A stretch of 64,000 nt of DNA, taken from positions 1-64,000 of the forward strand of contig CALFBI010000003.1 of NCBI GenBank assembly GCA_937951675.1, written 5' to 3'. Shown one piece after another: positions 4,173 to 62,704 of the stretch; positions within the stretch are counted from its first letter, which is position 1, and every line of letters begins with the position of its first letter. The position numbers were made by a program, and so were the translations under genes. This stretch comes from an uncultured Verrucomicrobiales bacterium. GTDB lineage: Bacteria > Verrucomicrobiota > Verrucomicrobiia > Verrucomicrobiales > Akkermansiaceae. Below the pieces are notes generated by a model. The model was not told the DNA's origin. It made no database searches and saw nothing but the letters and a program-made list of their open reading frames with translations.

Positions 4173-4263
4173 GGTCGAGAGAAGGGTTGGTTTAGAAAAG
4201 AAATCTCACAGTTCGGATTTGCTTTTTTGTCGCTCTGGGTGCATGACTTTTGTCAGACCCAAT

Positions 4264-5937
4264 ATGAGCAAGGAAGCATTGAGAATCGCAGTAGGGGCCG
4301 ATCACGGCGGGGTAGAGCTTAAAGTAGCTGTATTAAAGGCTTTGAATGAGGCCGGTCATACGGTTGTGAACTTTGGCACGGATTCTGAAGGCTCTGTTGA
4401 CTATGGAGATTTCGCGAGCGAAGTCGCACGAGGCGTGCACGAAGAAAGGTTCGATTTAGGTATTTTGATCTGCCGTTCAGGGATCGGAATGAGCATTGCT
4501 GCGAACCGTTTCCGTGATGTCAGAGCCGCTCGTGTTGTTAATAAAGCTGAAGCCATTTTAACCCGTCAGCATAATAAAACTAATGTTCTTTGTTTTGGTT
4601 CAAATGATTTAAATGCGGCGGAGTCCGTAGAAGTGACGATGGCCTTTCTTGACGCCGAATTTGAAGGTGGAAGGCATGAAGTCCGCTTAACGAAAGCTTC
4701 GGGGAGCCGCTTAGCGTTGACGGACCCAGATGTTTTTGCAGCTTTGCTCGATGAGGAATCTCGTCAGCGCAATAATATTGAACTGATTGCTTCTGAAAAC
4801 TTCGCAAGTCCAGCCGTGATGGAGGCGCAAGGGTCTTTGCTTACCAATAAGTATGCGGAAGGGTATCCAGGTCGTCGTTGGTATGGAGGATGTGAAAATG
4901 TCGATGTGATTGAAACGCTTGCCATTGAGCGCGCGAAGGAAATTTTTGGAGCGGACCATGCGAACGTGCAAGCTCATTCAGGTTCGCAAGCTAACACCGC
5001 AGTTTACTTTTCGGTGTTAAAGCCAGGTGATAAAATTCTCACAATGGATTTAGCGCATGGAGGACATTTGACTCATGGGCATAAGGCTAATTTCTCGGGA
5101 CGCTTTTATGAAGTGACCCATTATGGCGTGGATGAAACGTCCGAGCAGATTGATTACGATCACCTCGAGCAAATTGCGAAAGAAGTGAAACCTGCGCTCA
5201 TCACGTGTGGCGCGAGTGCTTACCCGCGCACGATTGATTTTGCTCGGATGAGTGAAATCGCGAAAGCGGTAGGGGCTTATCTCTTTGTCGATATGGCTCA
5301 TATTGCAGGCTTAGTTGCGGCGGGAGTCCACCCGAGTCCTGTTCCGTATGCTGATTTTGTGACTTCGACGACGCATAAGTCGCTTCGAGGACCACGTGGT
5401 GGAATTATTCTTTGTAAGGAAGAGTATGCTAAAAAAATCGATTCCCAGGTATTCCCAGGTATTCAAGGTGGCCCCCTCATGCATGTGATTGCAGCGAAGG
5501 CGGTTTGTTTTAAAGAAGCTCTTCAAGACGGCTTTAAAGAATACCAAGCACAGGTTGTTAAAAATGCGGTCGCATTGGCAGCACGATTGGCGGAGCATGG
5601 TTACCGGATTGTGTCGGGCGGAACTGATAATCATCTCCTTCTCGTTGATTTGCGTTCTGCAGGCCTTAATGGGTCAGAAGCCTCTCATGCTCTTGATCTC
5701 GCGGGAATTACCGTGAATAAGAATTCGATTCCTTTTGATACTGGTTCTCCAATGAAGCCAAGTGGGATTCGGATTGGAACTCCTGCGGTGACGACACGTG
5801 GGATGAAAGAAGATGATATTCGTCAAGTCGGAGACTTCATTCATGAGGCTATTCAGAATCGATCTGATGAAGCAGCCTTGGCAGGTATTATGGAGCGTGT
5901 GCATGCTTTCAATCAGCGATTCCCACTCCCTTTCTAA
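4264..5937 (+). CDS. Fusion of ribose-5-phosphate isomerase B and serine hydroxymethyltransferase
   Basis: A 557-residue two-domain enzyme. Residues 1 to about 140 are RpiB ([11 protein letters not shown], then [16 protein letters not shown] with catalytic-type Cys70), which interconverts ribose 5-phosphate and ribulose 5-phosphate. Residues from about 150 to the end are a complete PLP-dependent serine hydroxymethyltransferase ([39 protein letters not shown] with the PLP lysine at 372), which makes glycine and methylene-tetrahydrofolate from serine. Both sets of catalytic residues look intact. The start ATG at 4264 gives the usual RpiB N-terminus; a 15-residue longer form from 4219 is unlikely. 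Separate rpiB and glyA genes are close neighbours in Bacillus, which suggests how the fusion arose. A strong terminator follows. Confidence 0.93.
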
Positions 5938-57116: not shown

Positions 57117-57154
57117 TAAAAAAAGCTGAAGACGTTGAACGCCTTCAGCTTTTG
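57117..57154. terminator. Bidirectional terminator
   Basis: AAAAGCTGAAG-A-CG, loop TTGAA, CG-C-CTTCAGCTTTT, with an A run before and T run after. It separates the plus-strand membrane protein from the minus-strand sugar operon. Confidence 0.8.
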
Positions 57155-57185: not shown

Positions 57186-57479
57186 TCAGAGTCTTTCTCG
57201 GATCCATTCAGCTCCAACTTCAGCTCGTTTGGCTCGGGACCCACCTCGAAGGTTCGCAATTTCTGCAATACTAGAGTCGAGTTCAAGTATCTGGCCGAGG
57301 TCAGACTTCTCTTCATCATGGTATTCGGTCGTCGTGCCACAAGAAAAGTGCCAGCTGTCATCTTCTGCAAAGTGAGTGACAATTTTAATAGGAAGGCCTT
57401 CTTCAAGCACCTGGCGTGTAATGATGGCCTCCGTGAAAGGAGGCTGACGAAACGGCCATTTAAATGATTCAATTCCCAT
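57186..57479 (-). CDS. Hypothetical 97-residue protein in the sugar operon
   Basis: From the ATG at 57479: MGIESFKWPFRQPPFTEAII, a HFAEDDSWHFSCGTT block and a C-terminal DSSIAEIANLRGGSRAKRAE. Similar small proteins with this WHFSCG-type block exist in other bacteria, but no function is known to me. It follows the L-galactonate dehydrogenase-like gene by 34 bases and ends the operon before a terminator. Confidence 0.7.
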   Translation of the reverse strand: MGIESFKWPFRQPPFTEAIITRQVLEEGLPIKIVTHFAEDDSWHFSCGTTTEYHDEEKSDLGQILELDSSIAEIANLRGGSRAKRAEVGAEWIRERL

Positions 57480-57513
57480 CTGATCAGAATACGATAATAA
57501 TGAAAAAAAGCGA

Positions 57514-58542
57514 TTAAGAATCGTGATCAATTGAGATCATGGCCTTGATCTGTCCTTCTTGTTTGGTGATTCCTTCGAAAAGGTCTCCGACTTCTTCGAG
57601 TTTCATTCTCTGAGTGATCCAAGGGTCGGTGTCTACTTTACCGGATTCAACTGCTGCAATGACTTTTTCGAAAGTGGATGGGAGCGCGTTGCGGCTCGCC
57701 ATGAGGGTGAGCTCCTTACGGTGGAAGGAAGGGTCGTCAAAGTTAACCTCTCCAATGAAGAGACCAAGGAAGACAATCCGGCAACCATGTCCAGCAAGGT
57801 TGAAGGTGTTTTCCATCGATTTTTTATTTCCGGTCGCATCAATAATGACGGTTGGGAGTTGACCTCCACAAATCGCACGAAGCGCTTCTTCGGAATCGCC
57901 TTCAAGTGGGTTAACGCTCGCGTCAATGCCAAGATCTTTGCGGCAGAATGCGAGGCGATCATTACTGATATCCATCGCAATGACGTGGGCGCCTTCTGCT
58001 TTTGCAAATTGCATCGCTCCGAGTCCAATAGGACCAGCTCCGATAACGAGAGTGTGTTCACCCTGACGAGGGTTCGCACGTTCGACAGCATGAGCTCCGA
58101 TGCAGAGAGTTTCGACAAGAGCGAGTTGATCAAAACTTAGGCTGCTAGATTTATGAAGTTTATCAGTAGGAAGAGTGAAGTAAGGACGCATCCCCCCATC
58201 AACGTGCACACCGAGAACTTTCATGTTTTCACAGGCGTTCGTCACTCCAGCTTGGGAAGCAGGAGATTGTGGGTCAAAGAGGTAAGGCTCGACGGAGCAC
58301 TTATCTCCTACTTTGAGACCTTTTGGGTTCTCTGATCCAATTTCAACGATTTCGACTCCAAGCTCGTGTCCGAGAACACGTGGGTATTCGAAGAAGGGTT
58401 GGCGGCCAGCAAAGGCGTGCAGGTCAGTGCCGCAGACTCCAACTCGGTGAACGCGAACGAGCGCTTCATTAGCGCCGCAAGTGGGATATTCCTCTTCCCG
58501 GCTACCAAAGCGGCCTGGTTCTTCTAAAGTGACTGTTTTCAT
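57514..58542 (-). CDS. Zinc alcohol dehydrogenase, L-galactonate 5-dehydrogenase-like (LgoD/YjjN)
   Basis: A 342-residue medium-chain dehydrogenase. Catalytic zinc ligands by position are Cys37 (GVCGTDLHAFAGRQPFFEYP) and His59-Glu60 (VLGHE); the NAD motif is VIGAGPIGLGAMQF. The structural-zinc cysteines are mostly gone (only Cys104 remains). The blocks GTDxHAxxGxQPFFxYPRVLGHE and IDATGN, then FLGLFIGEVNFDDPSFHRKE, closely follow E. coli LgoD as I remember it, which oxidises L-galactonate to D-tagaturonate. Start overlaps the aldo-keto reductase stop by four bases. The next enzyme needed is the tagaturonate epimerase encoded in the same operon. Confidence 0.85.
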   Translation of the reverse strand: MKTVTLEEPGRFGSREEEYPTCGANEALVRVHRVGVCGTDLHAFAGRQPFFEYPRVLGHELGVEIVEIGSENPKGLKVGDKCSVEPYLFDPQSPASQAGVTNACENMKVLGVHVDGGMRPYFTLPTDKLHKSSSLSFDQLALVETLCIGAHAVERANPRQGEHTLVIGAGPIGLGAMQFAKAEGAHVIAMDISNDRLAFCRKDLGIDASVNPLEGDSEEALRAICGGQLPTVIIDATGNKKSMENTFNLAGHGCRIVFLGLFIGEVNFDDPSFHRKELTLMASRNALPSTFEKVIAAVESGKVDTDPWITQRMKLEEVGDLFEGITKQEGQIKAMISIDHDS

Positions 58543-59486
58543 GACGCTAGATCGTTATTTTTGGGAAGGCCTGAAGCCCAAGTTTGGTTCATTACTGGAG
58601 CAAGGATTTCTTGCACTCCGGCGAGAAGTTCTTTGTTGGTCTCTTCGCTAATGAGTTTCACGTTATTGATGATTCGCTCAGGGTTAGCGGTGCTGACGGC
58701 TGTCGTCGGAATCCCGGGGTGAGCCGTCGAAAATTGGAGTCCAAGCGTAGAAAGGTCACCCCCGTTTTCACGGCAATAAACAGCTGCTTTCTCAGCAGCA
58801 TTTTTTACTTCTTGAGGTGCAGGATGCCATTCTGGAGGTCCTTGGTTCGTGAGGAGTCCCATACTGGTTGGGGCCGCGTTAACGACCGCAATTTTAGCCG
58901 CCTCAAGAGCGGGAAGGATGTTTGCCAAGCCAGTATCATTGAGACTGTATCGGCAGTAGGTCATGATGATGTCGATGAGTTCTGGCGCATTTGCGATTCC
59001 GTTCTCGAATGTTTTGAGAGGGAGTCCAGAAATACCAACGTGCTTGACCTTTCCTGTTTCTTTCAGTTTGTGAAGAGCCGGGAGGGTTTCTTCCCAGATT
59101 TGCTTTTGGTCGACGAATTCGATATCGTGGCAGAAGAGAATATCGATGTGATCAACATTCATCCGAGTAAGAGATTCGTCGACACTTTTGATGACGCGTT
59201 CTGGCGAGAAGTCGAACTCATTCATGTCATAACGACCACATTTCGTAGAGAGAATATAGCGGTCACGATCAATGGTTTTGAGCGCTTTACCAAGAACAGT
59301 TTCGGCCTTTGTGAGGCCGTAGAAAGGGGAGCAATCGATGTAGTTGATTCCTTGATCAAGAGCGGTTTCGACAGTTTTAATGGCCTGCCCTTCGTCGATG
59401 TTTTTGAAGACTCCTCCGAGAGAAGAAGCACCAAACCCTAAGATTGAGACGTCCAGGTCAAGTGGTCCAAGTTTACGGTATTCCAT
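58539..59486 (-). CDS. Aldo-keto reductase, L-galactose dehydrogenase-like
   Basis: A 315-residue aldo-keto reductase with the tetrad Asp51, Tyr56 (YIDCSPFYG), Lys82 (STKCGRYD) and His120 (LFCHDIEF). The blocks FGASSLGGVF, GLLTNQGPPEWHPAPQE and CHDIEF are those of plant and bacterial L-galactose dehydrogenases, which oxidise C1 of L-galactose to the lactone; L-fucose is a possible alternative substrate. Overlaps the LgoD-like gene by ATGA and follows the epimerase-like gene. Confidence 0.87.
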   Translation of the reverse strand: MEYRKLGPLDLDVSILGFGASSLGGVFKNIDEGQAIKTVETALDQGINYIDCSPFYGLTKAETVLGKALKTIDRDRYILSTKCGRYDMNEFDFSPERVIKSVDESLTRMNVDHIDILFCHDIEFVDQKQIWEETLPALHKLKETGKVKHVGISGLPLKTFENGIANAPELIDIIMTYCRYSLNDTGLANILPALEAAKIAVVNAAPTSMGLLTNQGPPEWHPAPQEVKNAAEKAAVYCRENGGDLSTLGLQFSTAHPGIPTTAVSTANPERIINNVKLISEETNKELLAGVQEILAPVMNQTWASGLPKNNDLAS

Positions 59487-59505
59487 AGAGATAGAGTGTT
59501 AAGTG

Positions 59506-60753
59506 TTATCCGAGGATAGGTTTGATGTGGCGATCGAGAATGTTTTCGGTCACGTTGCGGTTAACAACCACTTTAAAGGTTTCGAGAGCATCGAGATAAC
59601 GAGGTCCCATTTTTGCAGCGACCTTGAATCCAACATGAATCAGCTGGCGAAGGCTGTTGTTGTATTCGGGATGGTCTGGGCAATGGCGAAGGGCGTTAAC
59701 AAATTGATCACTATTCCATGCGTTGACGATGGAAGGGTCAGGAAGTTGGGCGTGATCGATGTTGATGACGGTTGCGTAAGGAGCGCAGAGTTCTTCCGCT
59801 TTTTCAAAAGCACCTTGGTAGATTTCTTTGGCAAGCGCGAGGCCATCTCCACCTGCTTCAGCGAGGCCGATGACTTCTTCAAGCCAGGTCGTTCCTGCTG
59901 TTTTAACGTGAAGTCCAGCATCATGCTTTTTGATCAATTTATTAATAATCGGGTAGATCGAAAATTTATCTGAACCAGAGTGAACGGAAAGTTTGAGAGT
60001 CTCAGGGAGACCAAATTCAGCAATGGCAAACTTGATCACGGAGAGGTCTTCGTCGAACTCTTTTTCGAAAGCAACAAGGTCACCGACATAGTCGACACCT
60101 TTGTTGAAGCGGCCAGTAAATTTCGGAGCAATCGTCTGAGCCGGAATATCATTTTGAGCAATCATTGCGAGCACGAAGAGGAGTTCTTCCGGGGACTGAG
60201 GCTTGTCTGTTTCATCTGCTGAAACTTCAATCGCGTAAGTGCCTTCTTCTTTATTGGCTGCGATATGACGATAGATTTTCCCTGCTTCCTGAACGGCTTT
60301 GAGGAACTGGCTTGCCGCTTCACGAGCCGAAGCTTCGGTTGGGTGAAGAGGTTCTGCTAATCCTTCAATTGCGAGTTCCTTGAAGTAAGGTTGCATCTTG
60401 GCAACGAAAGCATCGATATCAGCAGCTGGTGCTGATTCTCCAACGAAGTCTGCAACATCGAGAGTGAAGAAGTTGCTTCCAGGGATGAAGGCGTCAACAG
60501 TTTCGAGTTTGATGTGATCGGCGTCGATATAGTAGTCACCCTCGTAGTTGAGAGCCGCTACCGCAGCATCAGCTTCTTCACGAAGTGACTGAGGTTCAGT
60601 TCCGATAATCGTGTGTTCTCGGTGAGATTTGTTCCAAGTTGCGGCAACGTCGATACCGAGTTTGCGGCCACCCATAATCGCGGCGAGTTGAGCTTCCCCT
60701 TGTTTTCCAAAGCGGTCACCCATTCCGAAGGTGTATTTTGCGAGTTTCATCAT
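59506..60753 (-). CDS. Tagaturonate epimerase family protein (UxaE-like)
   Basis: A 415-residue protein of the UxaE family: MKLAKYTFGMGDRFGKQGEA at the start, LKLSVHSGSDKFSIYPIINK, LHVKTAGTTWLEEVIGLA and a C-terminal RNVTENILDRHIKPIL. UxaE converts D-tagaturonate to D-fructuronate in hexuronate catabolism. Its place between an L-galactose dehydrogenase-like and a lactonase-like gene fits use of tagaturonate made from L-galactonate. Tandem ATG codons at 60753 and 60750. Confidence 0.85.
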   Translation of the reverse strand: MMKLAKYTFGMGDRFGKQGEAQLAAIMGGRKLGIDVAATWNKSHREHTIIGTEPQSLREEADAAVAALNYEGDYYIDADHIKLETVDAFIPGSNFFTLDVADFVGESAPAADIDAFVAKMQPYFKELAIEGLAEPLHPTEASAREAASQFLKAVQEAGKIYRHIAANKEEGTYAIEVSADETDKPQSPEELLFVLAMIAQNDIPAQTIAPKFTGRFNKGVDYVGDLVAFEKEFDEDLSVIKFAIAEFGLPETLKLSVHSGSDKFSIYPIINKLIKKHDAGLHVKTAGTTWLEEVIGLAEAGGDGLALAKEIYQGAFEKAEELCAPYATVINIDHAQLPDPSIVNAWNSDQFVNALRHCPDHPEYNNSLRQLIHVGFKVAAKMGPRYLDALETFKVVVNRNVTENILDRHIKPILG

Positions 60754-60769
60754 GGTTTTTTAGTGTTTT

Positions 60770-61603
60770 TTAAAGTTGGTAAATGCGTTTGGCGTTTCCA
60801 CCCCAGAAGGCCTTTCGCTCATCAGTGGAGAACGCGCTGGTGGCGGTTTCTAAAGTATGAATCCATTCAGCGTAGGTGGTGCGGCATTCGCACACGGGCC
60901 AATCTGAACCAAAAAGGACACGATCCGCTCCAAAGACTTCAAAGCTGTGCTCAAGGTAAGGACGGATAAGATCAGGAGTCCATTTTGTTCCTTGGACTTC
61001 GGTGACAACACCGGAAATCTTACAAGAAATATGAGGGCGTTTAGCTAGCTCACTCATTTGGCTTTTCCAAGCGCTGTCGAATACATCAGCAGTAATGGAA
61101 GGTTTAGCAATGTGATCGAGAACAAAGATTTGATCAGGGTGCTGATCAACGAAGGTCACGGTGTTTTCTAGATGCTTGGCGAGAATGAGGACATCATAGG
61201 CGAGATTGTATTGCTGGAGGCGTTTGATTCCTGCATTGAAATCTTTCCTTAGGATGAAGGCATCGTCAGCTTCCGCTTGCACGACATGACGGACTCCTTT
61301 GAGCCACTGATTTTGAGAGTATTTCTCGAGATAGGGCTCACCTTCTTTTTCGCAAAGAGGCACCCATCCTACAACACCTCGGATTTCTGGAGTTTTGTCA
61401 GCCAAATTGAGAATCCAATTTGTTTCTTCGATGATTTGGCGAGCTTGAACAGTGATGGCTCCATCGACCTTTCCGGATTGAAGAGCTGCTTGTAAATCAG
61501 AGGGTAAAAAGTCTCTCCGAAGATTGGCCATACTTTCGTCAAGCCAGCCAAATTCGACCGGGTCATATTCCCAAAAGTGATGATGTGAGTCGATGCGTTC
61601 CAT
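60770..61603 (-). CDS. Amidohydrolase-family sugar lactonase (L-galactono/L-fucono-lactonase-like)
   Basis: A 277-residue TIM-barrel hydrolase of the COG3618 group, starting MERIDSHHHFWEYDPVEFGW at the ATG at 61603. Metal-binding HxH lies in residues 7-9, then VLDHIAKP and VLFGSDWPVCECRTTY with the catalytic Asp. This group hydrolyses lactones of L-fuconate, L-rhamnonate and L-galactonate. First gene of the operon; the 263-base gap upstream has no clear operator. Confidence 0.87.
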   Translation of the reverse strand: MERIDSHHHFWEYDPVEFGWLDESMANLRRDFLPSDLQAALQSGKVDGAITVQARQIIEETNWILNLADKTPEIRGVVGWVPLCEKEGEPYLEKYSQNQWLKGVRHVVQAEADDAFILRKDFNAGIKRLQQYNLAYDVLILAKHLENTVTFVDQHPDQIFVLDHIAKPSITADVFDSAWKSQMSELAKRPHISCKISGVVTEVQGTKWTPDLIRPYLEHSFEVFGADRVLFGSDWPVCECRTTYAEWIHTLETATSAFSTDERKAFWGGNAKRIYQL

Positions 61604-61866: not shown

Positions 61867-62704
61867 ATGAAAAATGGAAATACCAAATTAAGTTACCGGA
61901 AATCTTTAGGGATTTGTTTTTTTGTTCATGTGACATTAAGCCTTTCGCAGCAGGGGAGGGCTGATCCAGTGCCCTTTGATAGGCAGCCCAACTTTTTTCA
62001 AGTGGTTTCAGGGCAGTTAAATTCCTTAGATCCTCGTGATGGTGTGTATACCAAAATAGGGTCTAAAAAAGAGAGCTATAATGCCGCCGGTTATAATATA
62101 AAAGATGACCTTGCTTATGCTTGGGGTAGATATTCCCCATATAAAGATCAACTTGTTCGAATTCATGGGGACGGCTCTTTTGTTGCTTTAGGAACCCCAA
62201 CAACTACTGGTGATCCTGTCCCAACTTTCCGTATTTATGCTGGTGATATGGATTTGAGGGGCATTTGTGGGTTCGGGGAGATCGTTTTTATAGTCCCGAT
62301 CTGATGAAGATTAATGTCGAAACCTCTACTTATGAAATGGTTCGTTTTGAAGGGCCAAATCCAGGAGGTGTCGCCGATATTGTTTATCAAGAAAGGGAGG
62401 GATCGAAATACTTCTTTGGGGCGAGAGATCAAAATCTGTATGTTTGGGACCTTTCTACTTATACAGTGCAAAAAATATCAGTGAAGAACCTTCCTGAGGT
62501 TCGAATTGCCTATAGATCCGCTTACATAGATCAATCTGGAAATTTGTATGTAAGTAGTAATAAGGGAGGCGTTTATCAGATTATCAATTATACGACTTCT
62601 GATCCGCGAGCAGTGTTTCTCCTTGATAGTGTTTTGTTACTGGTAATAATGACGGAGTCAGCTGTCCAGTGACAGAGAGCCCCTTAGTGATTCCAAAAAA
62701 TTAA
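61867..62704 (+). pseudogene. Broken secreted DUF6923-like protein gene
   Basis: Starts with a signal peptide region (LGICFFVHVTLSLSQQGRA) and reads SYNAAGYNIKDDLAYAWGRY and DQLVRIHGDGSFVALG, the pattern of DUF6923. The frame then breaks near 62261 (a one-base loss turns GHLWVRGDRF into a stop) and continues at 62265 as LWVRGDRFYSPDLMKINVET. It breaks again at a short T run near 62630 and continues VTGNNDGVSCPVTESPLV to a stop at 62704. Both breaks are mended by one added base. A decayed gene or two base-calling errors would look alike; a complete homologue would be longer. Confidence 0.7.

Follow-up and report, generated by a model that had tools for sequence, protein, structure and literature searches.

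Bacterial catabolism of L-galactose has been described in few organisms, and those that we found reduce D-tagaturonate. The closest described system is the dual L-glucose/L-galactose pathway of Luteolibacter sp. LG18 (lguA-F, lguG, and lguH), published in 2025, in which L-galactose is converted to D-tagaturonate, LguC reduces D-tagaturonate to D-altronate, and LguB dehydrates the latter to 2-keto-3-deoxy-D-gluconate (KDG) (PMC12632266). The L-galactose and L-galactonate dehydrogenases of Phocaeicola (Bacteroides) vulgatus (BVU_0219/0222) also lead to D-tagaturonate, and the exit there is that of Escherichia coli L-galactonate metabolism, through altronate, with no part for the tagaturonate/fructuronate epimerase UxaE (PMC12632266). 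UxaE does act after D-tagaturonate in the galacturonate branch of the Thermotoga maritima UxaR regulon (gnd-uxaE-uxaD-gntE-gntK) (PMC3750489), from which the exit presumably runs through D-mannonate, D-gluconate, and 6-phosphogluconate. Here, we describe a four-gene operon that appears to combine these two designs. It lies in a stretch of 64,000 nucleotides (the window; contig CALFBI010000003.1, positions 1 to 64,000) from an uncultured Verrucomicrobiales bacterium of the family Akkermansiaceae (GCA_937951675.1), whose genome assembly is 2.05 Mb with a completeness of 96.8%.

The best explanation of the operon, to which we assign a probability of about 0.7, is that it converts L-galactose to D-fructuronate, which would probably leave through a short-chain dehydrogenase/reductase (SDR) to D-mannonate and then by way of D-gluconate and 6-phosphogluconate. 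An aldo-keto reductase (AKR) would oxidize L-galactose to the lactone, a lactonase would open the lactone to L-galactonate, a zinc-dependent medium-chain dehydrogenase (ADH) would oxidize C-5 to give D-tagaturonate, and UxaE would turn this into D-fructuronate by a retro-aldol and aldol reaction. The operon shares with LG18 the phylum, the AKR clade, and the zinc dehydrogenase, but it has UxaE in place of the reductase LguC, and it includes a lactonase gene. LG18 also has a C-4 epimerase for L-glucose. The family of LguC (UxaB, PF01232) had no match in the host genome, although controls were detected. Compared with T. maritima, the feed would be L-galactose instead of D-galacturonate, the host has no match for UxaC or LarA group 18, and its UxaE is of a different, short form. 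The oxidative front end of a known pathway would thus be joined to a different fourth step, a combination that appears to be new and is, from sequence comparison, well supported as far as D-fructuronate. We found no paper linking UxaE to L-galactose, in a search that was thin on subscription literature. The LG18 authors reported no organism with an L-galactose-only gene set (PMC12632266); the operon described here could be such a set, as no C-4 epimerase gene stands beside it, IolO not having been searched for genome-wide.

Evidence for the four steps

Sequence data and comparison of predicted structures both give good support to steps 1 and 4. The AKR scored 174.1 bits against the Pfam profile Aldo_ket_red (cutoff, 24) and retains the catalytic tetrad (D51, Y56, K82, and H120), and its top PDB matches were all L-galactose dehydrogenases (E values of 3e-92 to 4e-87, with the next family at 5e-27). 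Its AlphaFold model (pLDDT 92) matched 9w6y, the LG18 L-galactose dehydrogenase solved with L-galactose and NADP, with a TM score of 0.95, a root mean square deviation (rmsd) of 1.6, and 48% identity. In the AKR tree, the window protein and those of two other genomes, G130 and G380, grouped with the LG18, spinach, and rice enzymes with a support of 100/100, and a separate second clade held AKRs that are frequent next to UxaE. The LG18 enzyme, LguA, has a Km of 0.09 mM on L-galactose and is inactive on L-fucose (PMC12632266). Because the window AKR belongs to the same clade as this relative, its substrate is most likely L-galactose.

The UxaE protein scored 191.9 bits against PF16257 (cutoff, 27.1), and its match to the family profile begins only at position 78 of 475. 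Its AlphaFold model (pLDDT 91) aligned with Cohnella UxaE (6il9) with a Z score of 40.1 and an rmsd of 2.4 over 376 residues and with Thermotogota relatives at a Z score of about 41 (9lhu, 41.3). An archaeal tagatose 4-epimerase reached 27, and other folds reached 23 at most. Retro-aldol chemistry has been described for UxaE, with Glu126 and Asp159 of the Cohnella enzyme as the proposed catalytic residues (PMC11194214); these correspond to E46 and D79 here and are unchanged in 18 relatives. The short form is widespread, with at least 569 confirmed matches in the genome collection, including Planctomycetota, Bacteroidota, Acidobacteriota, and Spirochaetota. Since its neighbors in the best 80 loci include UxaC (20/80), SDRs (19/80), LarA (13/80), and Gnd (10/80), tagaturonate and fructuronate are probably its normal substrate pair. 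GH28 pectinases and ExuT-like transporters also recur in these loci. Three of the four SDRs tested from relatives scored above the D-mannonate oxidoreductase cutoff, and the LarA beside short UxaE belongs to group 18, a "putative hexonate epimerase," so that a common exit in genomes with short UxaE would lead from D-mannonate to D-gluconate. These gene neighborhoods, seen in other phyla, are similar to the T. maritima regulon gnd-uxaE-uxaD-gntE-gntK (PMC3750489). In the UxaE tree, L-galactose-type and uronate-type contexts were clustered yet mixed (14 and 17 changes), and the context can therefore not be read from the UxaE sequence alone. A second, remoter form of UxaE (28% identity) is clustered with a lactonase and an ADH at L074:9209-12465 and L075:7768-12738, to which L075 adds an SDR and a further AKR-like protein.

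For steps 2 and 3, we propose the lactonase and the ADH on the basis of family, gene order, and chemistry, with no function-specific match. The lactonase belongs to the Amidohydro_2 superfamily (PF04909, 148.6 bits; cutoff, 26.4), carries the HxH motif at positions 7 to 9 and D234, and has 4dlf as its top solved relative (E value of 6e-50). The ADH matched both ADH_zinc_N (PF00107) and ADH_N (PF08240) above the cutoff, is closest to RspB and threonine dehydrogenase-like proteins, and retains C37, H59, and E60. Its N terminus, MKTVTLEEPG, resembles the MKTLVLREPG of the LG18 L-gluconate/L-galactonate dehydrogenase LguD (PMC12632266), a comparison limited to the LguD N terminus. The preliminary description of the locus had named four adjacent minus-strand genes and given each of them one of these steps; its coordinates and family calls are right, the assignments are supported by family profiles and operon layout, and UxaE does stand where LG18 has its tagaturonate reductase. 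The description did not mention the LG18 pathway, the closest one known, from a different genus of Verrucomicrobiota.

The same description had suggested a search for the gene set in relatives, and such a search recovered the genes for UxaE, AKR, and ADH, arranged as in the window and with the AKR belonging to the L-galactose clade, in G130 (66, 69, and 72% identity, respectively) and G380 (63, 49, and 54%). Given this recurrence, the grouping of the three genes is above chance. The preliminary description had noted that L-galactose is found in red algal polymers, in keeping with a marine host. The neighbors in G380 are a GH43 protein, an arabinofuranosidase, and a GH106 rhamnosidase, which point to plant cell wall polysaccharide as the source there. 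If the UxaE-based route is true, an L-galactose-type AKR beside UxaE would be a sequence rule for finding users of L-galactose, and the same oxidative front end would be shown to be joined to a different exit.

UxaE occurred together with an AKR relative in 29 fetched loci. A commoner cluster in the family consists of RbsD, an IolO-like 5-keto-L-gluconate epimerase, a second-clade AKR, an ADH, and UxaE (L053:6279-12918, L060, L062, L064, L067, and others, in many Akkermansiaceae), at times with a lactonase, a KDPG (2-keto-3-deoxy-6-phosphogluconate) aldolase, and a ROK kinase as well. The UxaE at L103 (Akkermansiaceae) is the same as that in G279, a member of the host's family. We rejected the commoner clusters as L-galactose pathways and did not count them as support, given that their AKR falls in the separate clade and that an IolO/LguG-like epimerase is encoded in them; their sugar may be a different one, for example L-glucose or a relative of it. 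In LG18, rbsD adjoins lguG, apart from the lgu cluster (PMC12632266). IolO was present at neither of the two loci with an L-galactose-type AKR and at 20 of the 27 others, as would be expected if the sugar of the second-clade AKR needs C-4 epimerization, a side point drawn from few cases.

Exit of D-fructuronate

The preliminary description had called the path complete and had read it as a variant route into hexuronate metabolism. The chemistry as far as D-fructuronate is well supported, but the path can be called complete only up to that compound, and its entry into the usual hexuronate pathway is not supported. UxuB/UxaB (PF01232), UxuA (PF03786), and UxaC (PF02614) had no match in the host genome, with positive controls detected, and we rejected them as the downstream enzymes; LarA group 18 (GntE, NF052594) likewise had none at an E value of 1e-20, with the T. 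maritima control detected. Across the order (387 genomes), none of the 99 genomes with short UxaE was among the 58 with the Mannitol_dh family of UxuB/UxaB, compared with 14.8 co-occurrences expected (Fisher P of 1e-8, not corrected for kinship). Full-length UxuA co-occurred with UxaE in 7 genomes, compared with 7.4 expected, and was thus neither enriched nor depleted. A strict D-mannonate oxidoreductase (NF006132 above the cutoff) was found in 26 genomes of the order, 5 of them with UxaE, which is no enrichment, and LarA group 18 exceeded the cutoff in 16 genomes, of which 11 have UxaE (genera g11 and g12). As UxaE is never found with UxuB/UxaB and these families are unmatched in the host, fructuronate must be used by something else in this lineage. 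The absence of UxuB from every UxaE genome tested, and of UxuA from most, raises the question of how D-fructuronate, and hence galacturonate, is used.

Because UxuB/UxaB, UxuA, and LarA group 18 were not found, our best guess is an exit through D-mannonate and D-gluconate, for which contig C11 would provide candidates. One operon there (L157:3595-6001) holds a gluconokinase (GntK; 144.7 bits, with a cutoff of 113.75), an Ldh_2-family dehydrogenase, and an SDR that shares 64% identity with the one encoded next to UxaE in a Mariniblastus genome. The order SDR-UxaC-Ldh_2-GntK is found in G244 (L166:5632-9600), UxaE-GntK-SDR and SDR-GntK-UxaE occur in two other phyla, and two other genomes have Ldh_2 with a C11-type SDR and a kinase 78 to 80% identical to the PfkB kinase of contig C27. 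These comparisons link the C11 genes with fructuronate but give no direct link with the operon in the window. An SDR, an Ldh_2-family dehydrogenase, a gluconokinase or PfkB kinase, and a 2-hydroxyacid dehydrogenase recur at L166, L168, L171, and L157, and the recurring set might take fructuronate to gluconate without a nickel enzyme. The interconversion of D-mannonate and D-gluconate is a known reaction of LarA-type GntE enzymes (PMC7583248, PMC11770544). We put forward, only as a hypothesis, that two dehydrogenases replace LarA; the full scheme, in which L-galactose would reach 6-phosphogluconate through D-fructuronate, D-mannonate, and D-gluconate without altronate, UxuA, or UxuB, and the Ldh_2-family and 2-hydroxyacid dehydrogenases would act via 2-keto-gluconate in place of the nickel-dependent LarA/GntE, is tentative and less likely than not.

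Objections and alternatives

Several observations weigh against the proposed pathway. Both the lactonase and the ADH fell under the cutoff of every function-specific model; the best NCBIfam match of the lactonase was L-fucono-1,5-lactonase (NF052480, COG3618) at 276 bits (cutoff, 400), and that of the ADH reached 180 bits with 376 needed. The operon showed no gene for a transporter, a regulator, or an L-galactosidase. The top model of the C11 SDR was D-mannonate oxidoreductase, at 242 bits below the 281 needed, its near relatives are present in the majority of the order's genomes, whether these have UxaE or not, and a known enzyme for the conversion of D-mannonate to D-gluconate was not found. 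With the front end as proposed, fructuronate could instead be reduced by an SDR to D-mannonate and dehydrated to KDG by the MR_MLE dehydratase of contig C15, with the kinase and KDPG aldolase of C27 completing the route. The genes are at hand, as C15 holds the MR_MLE protein and an SDR and C27 holds a KDPG aldolase, a 2-hydroxyacid dehydrogenase, and a PfkB kinase, and a KDPG aldolase adjoins the UxaE cluster in several relatives. However, the MR_MLE protein scored 126 bits with a ManD cutoff of 550 and was closer to L-talarate/galactarate dehydratase (257 bits; cutoff, 500), and 58 other genomes, including 29 with UxaE, lack an ortholog of it. We consider this exit doubtful, and we rejected the dehydratase as a conserved UxaE partner, since it occurs only in G000 among 59 genomes; because it is absent from the other 58, it was probably acquired. 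In C15 (L036:6997-10826), an AraC regulator faces an RspB-like ADH, the MR_MLE dehydratase, which is near 3tj4 (E value of 1e-125; a literature search on 3tj4 found no paper), and the SDR.

The remaining alternatives concern the substrates of the operon itself. L-Fucose (6-deoxy-L-galactose) is far more common than L-galactose, and the top function model of the lactonase would suit a pathway in which the AKR acts as an L-fucose dehydrogenase and the lactonase as an L-fuconolactonase. This is unlikely: the lactonase stays under the cutoff of that very model, and L-fucose lacks the 6-hydroxyl, so that its acid cannot yield D-tagaturonate and UxaE would be left without a substrate. The AKR falls in the L-galactose dehydrogenase clade, together with the plant enzymes and with an LG18 member that is inactive on L-fucose (PMC12632266), which makes a preference for L-fucose, named in the preliminary description as one case that would refute it, less likely. 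It is still less probable that the UxaE-like protein is an aldolase splitting D-tagaturonate into dihydroxyacetone and tartronate semialdehyde, a reading that would make fructuronate reductase and mannonate dehydratase unnecessary in a genome where UxuB and UxuA were not found and that could draw on the retro-aldol chemistry of UxaE (PMC11194214) and on the class II aldolases neighboring it in fold. Against it, both epimerase catalytic residues are retained, and elsewhere the family adjoins D-mannonate oxidoreductase and LarA, which is sensible only with fructuronate. We give the least credence to the idea that UxaE serves D-galacturonate and stands among the L-galactose genes by accident. Short UxaE is indeed a galacturonate enzyme in many genomes, beside UxaC and GH28, but UxaC has no match in the host genome, and UxaE lies inside the operon, with gaps of 16 to 19 bp, and keeps the same partners beside it in both G130 and G380.

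Operon layout and other features of the window

The four genes of the proposed L-galactose operon lie in series (61603-57514) with no broken frame and are listed in Table 1 in the order of transcription. The lactonase and UxaE genes are separated by 16 bp and the UxaE and AKR genes by 19 bp, and the AKR and ADH genes overlap by 4 bp. A fifth open reading frame (ORF) could start at a TTG at 57530 (114 amino acids) or at an inner ATG (97 amino acids); it had no family in the Pfam and NCBIfam scans, no relative in the fetched loci, and no solved relative worth naming, and it may not be a gene. The stem-loop after it is only suggestive as an operon terminator, since the total of such patterns in the scan was close to the shuffled mean.

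Table 1. Features of the operon and its downstream end in the window
Feature	Coordinates	Strand	Basis
COG3618-type sugar lactonase, 277 amino acids, first gene of the operon	60770..61603	-	PF04909
UxaE tagaturonate/fructuronate epimerase, short form, 415 amino acids	59506..60753	-	PF16257
L-Galactose dehydrogenase-type AKR, 315 amino acids	58539..59486	-	PDB matches, tree
Zinc-dependent medium-chain ADH, 342 amino acids, proposed L-galactonate 5-dehydrogenase	57514..58542	-	PF00107, PF08240
Possible fifth gene, 97-114 amino acids, no family assigned	57186..57530	-	ORF overlapping ADH gene end
Terminator-like stem-loop, 15 pairs, then T-run	57121..57153	-	Pattern scan

On the plus strand at 61867-62672, a DUF6923 match falls in the first of two overlapping frames, which together look like a single secreted protein interrupted by a frame change. 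At 4219-5937, also on the plus strand, ribose-5-phosphate isomerase B is fused to serine hydroxymethyltransferase in one 572-amino-acid frame; zwf and an OpcA-like gene come next.

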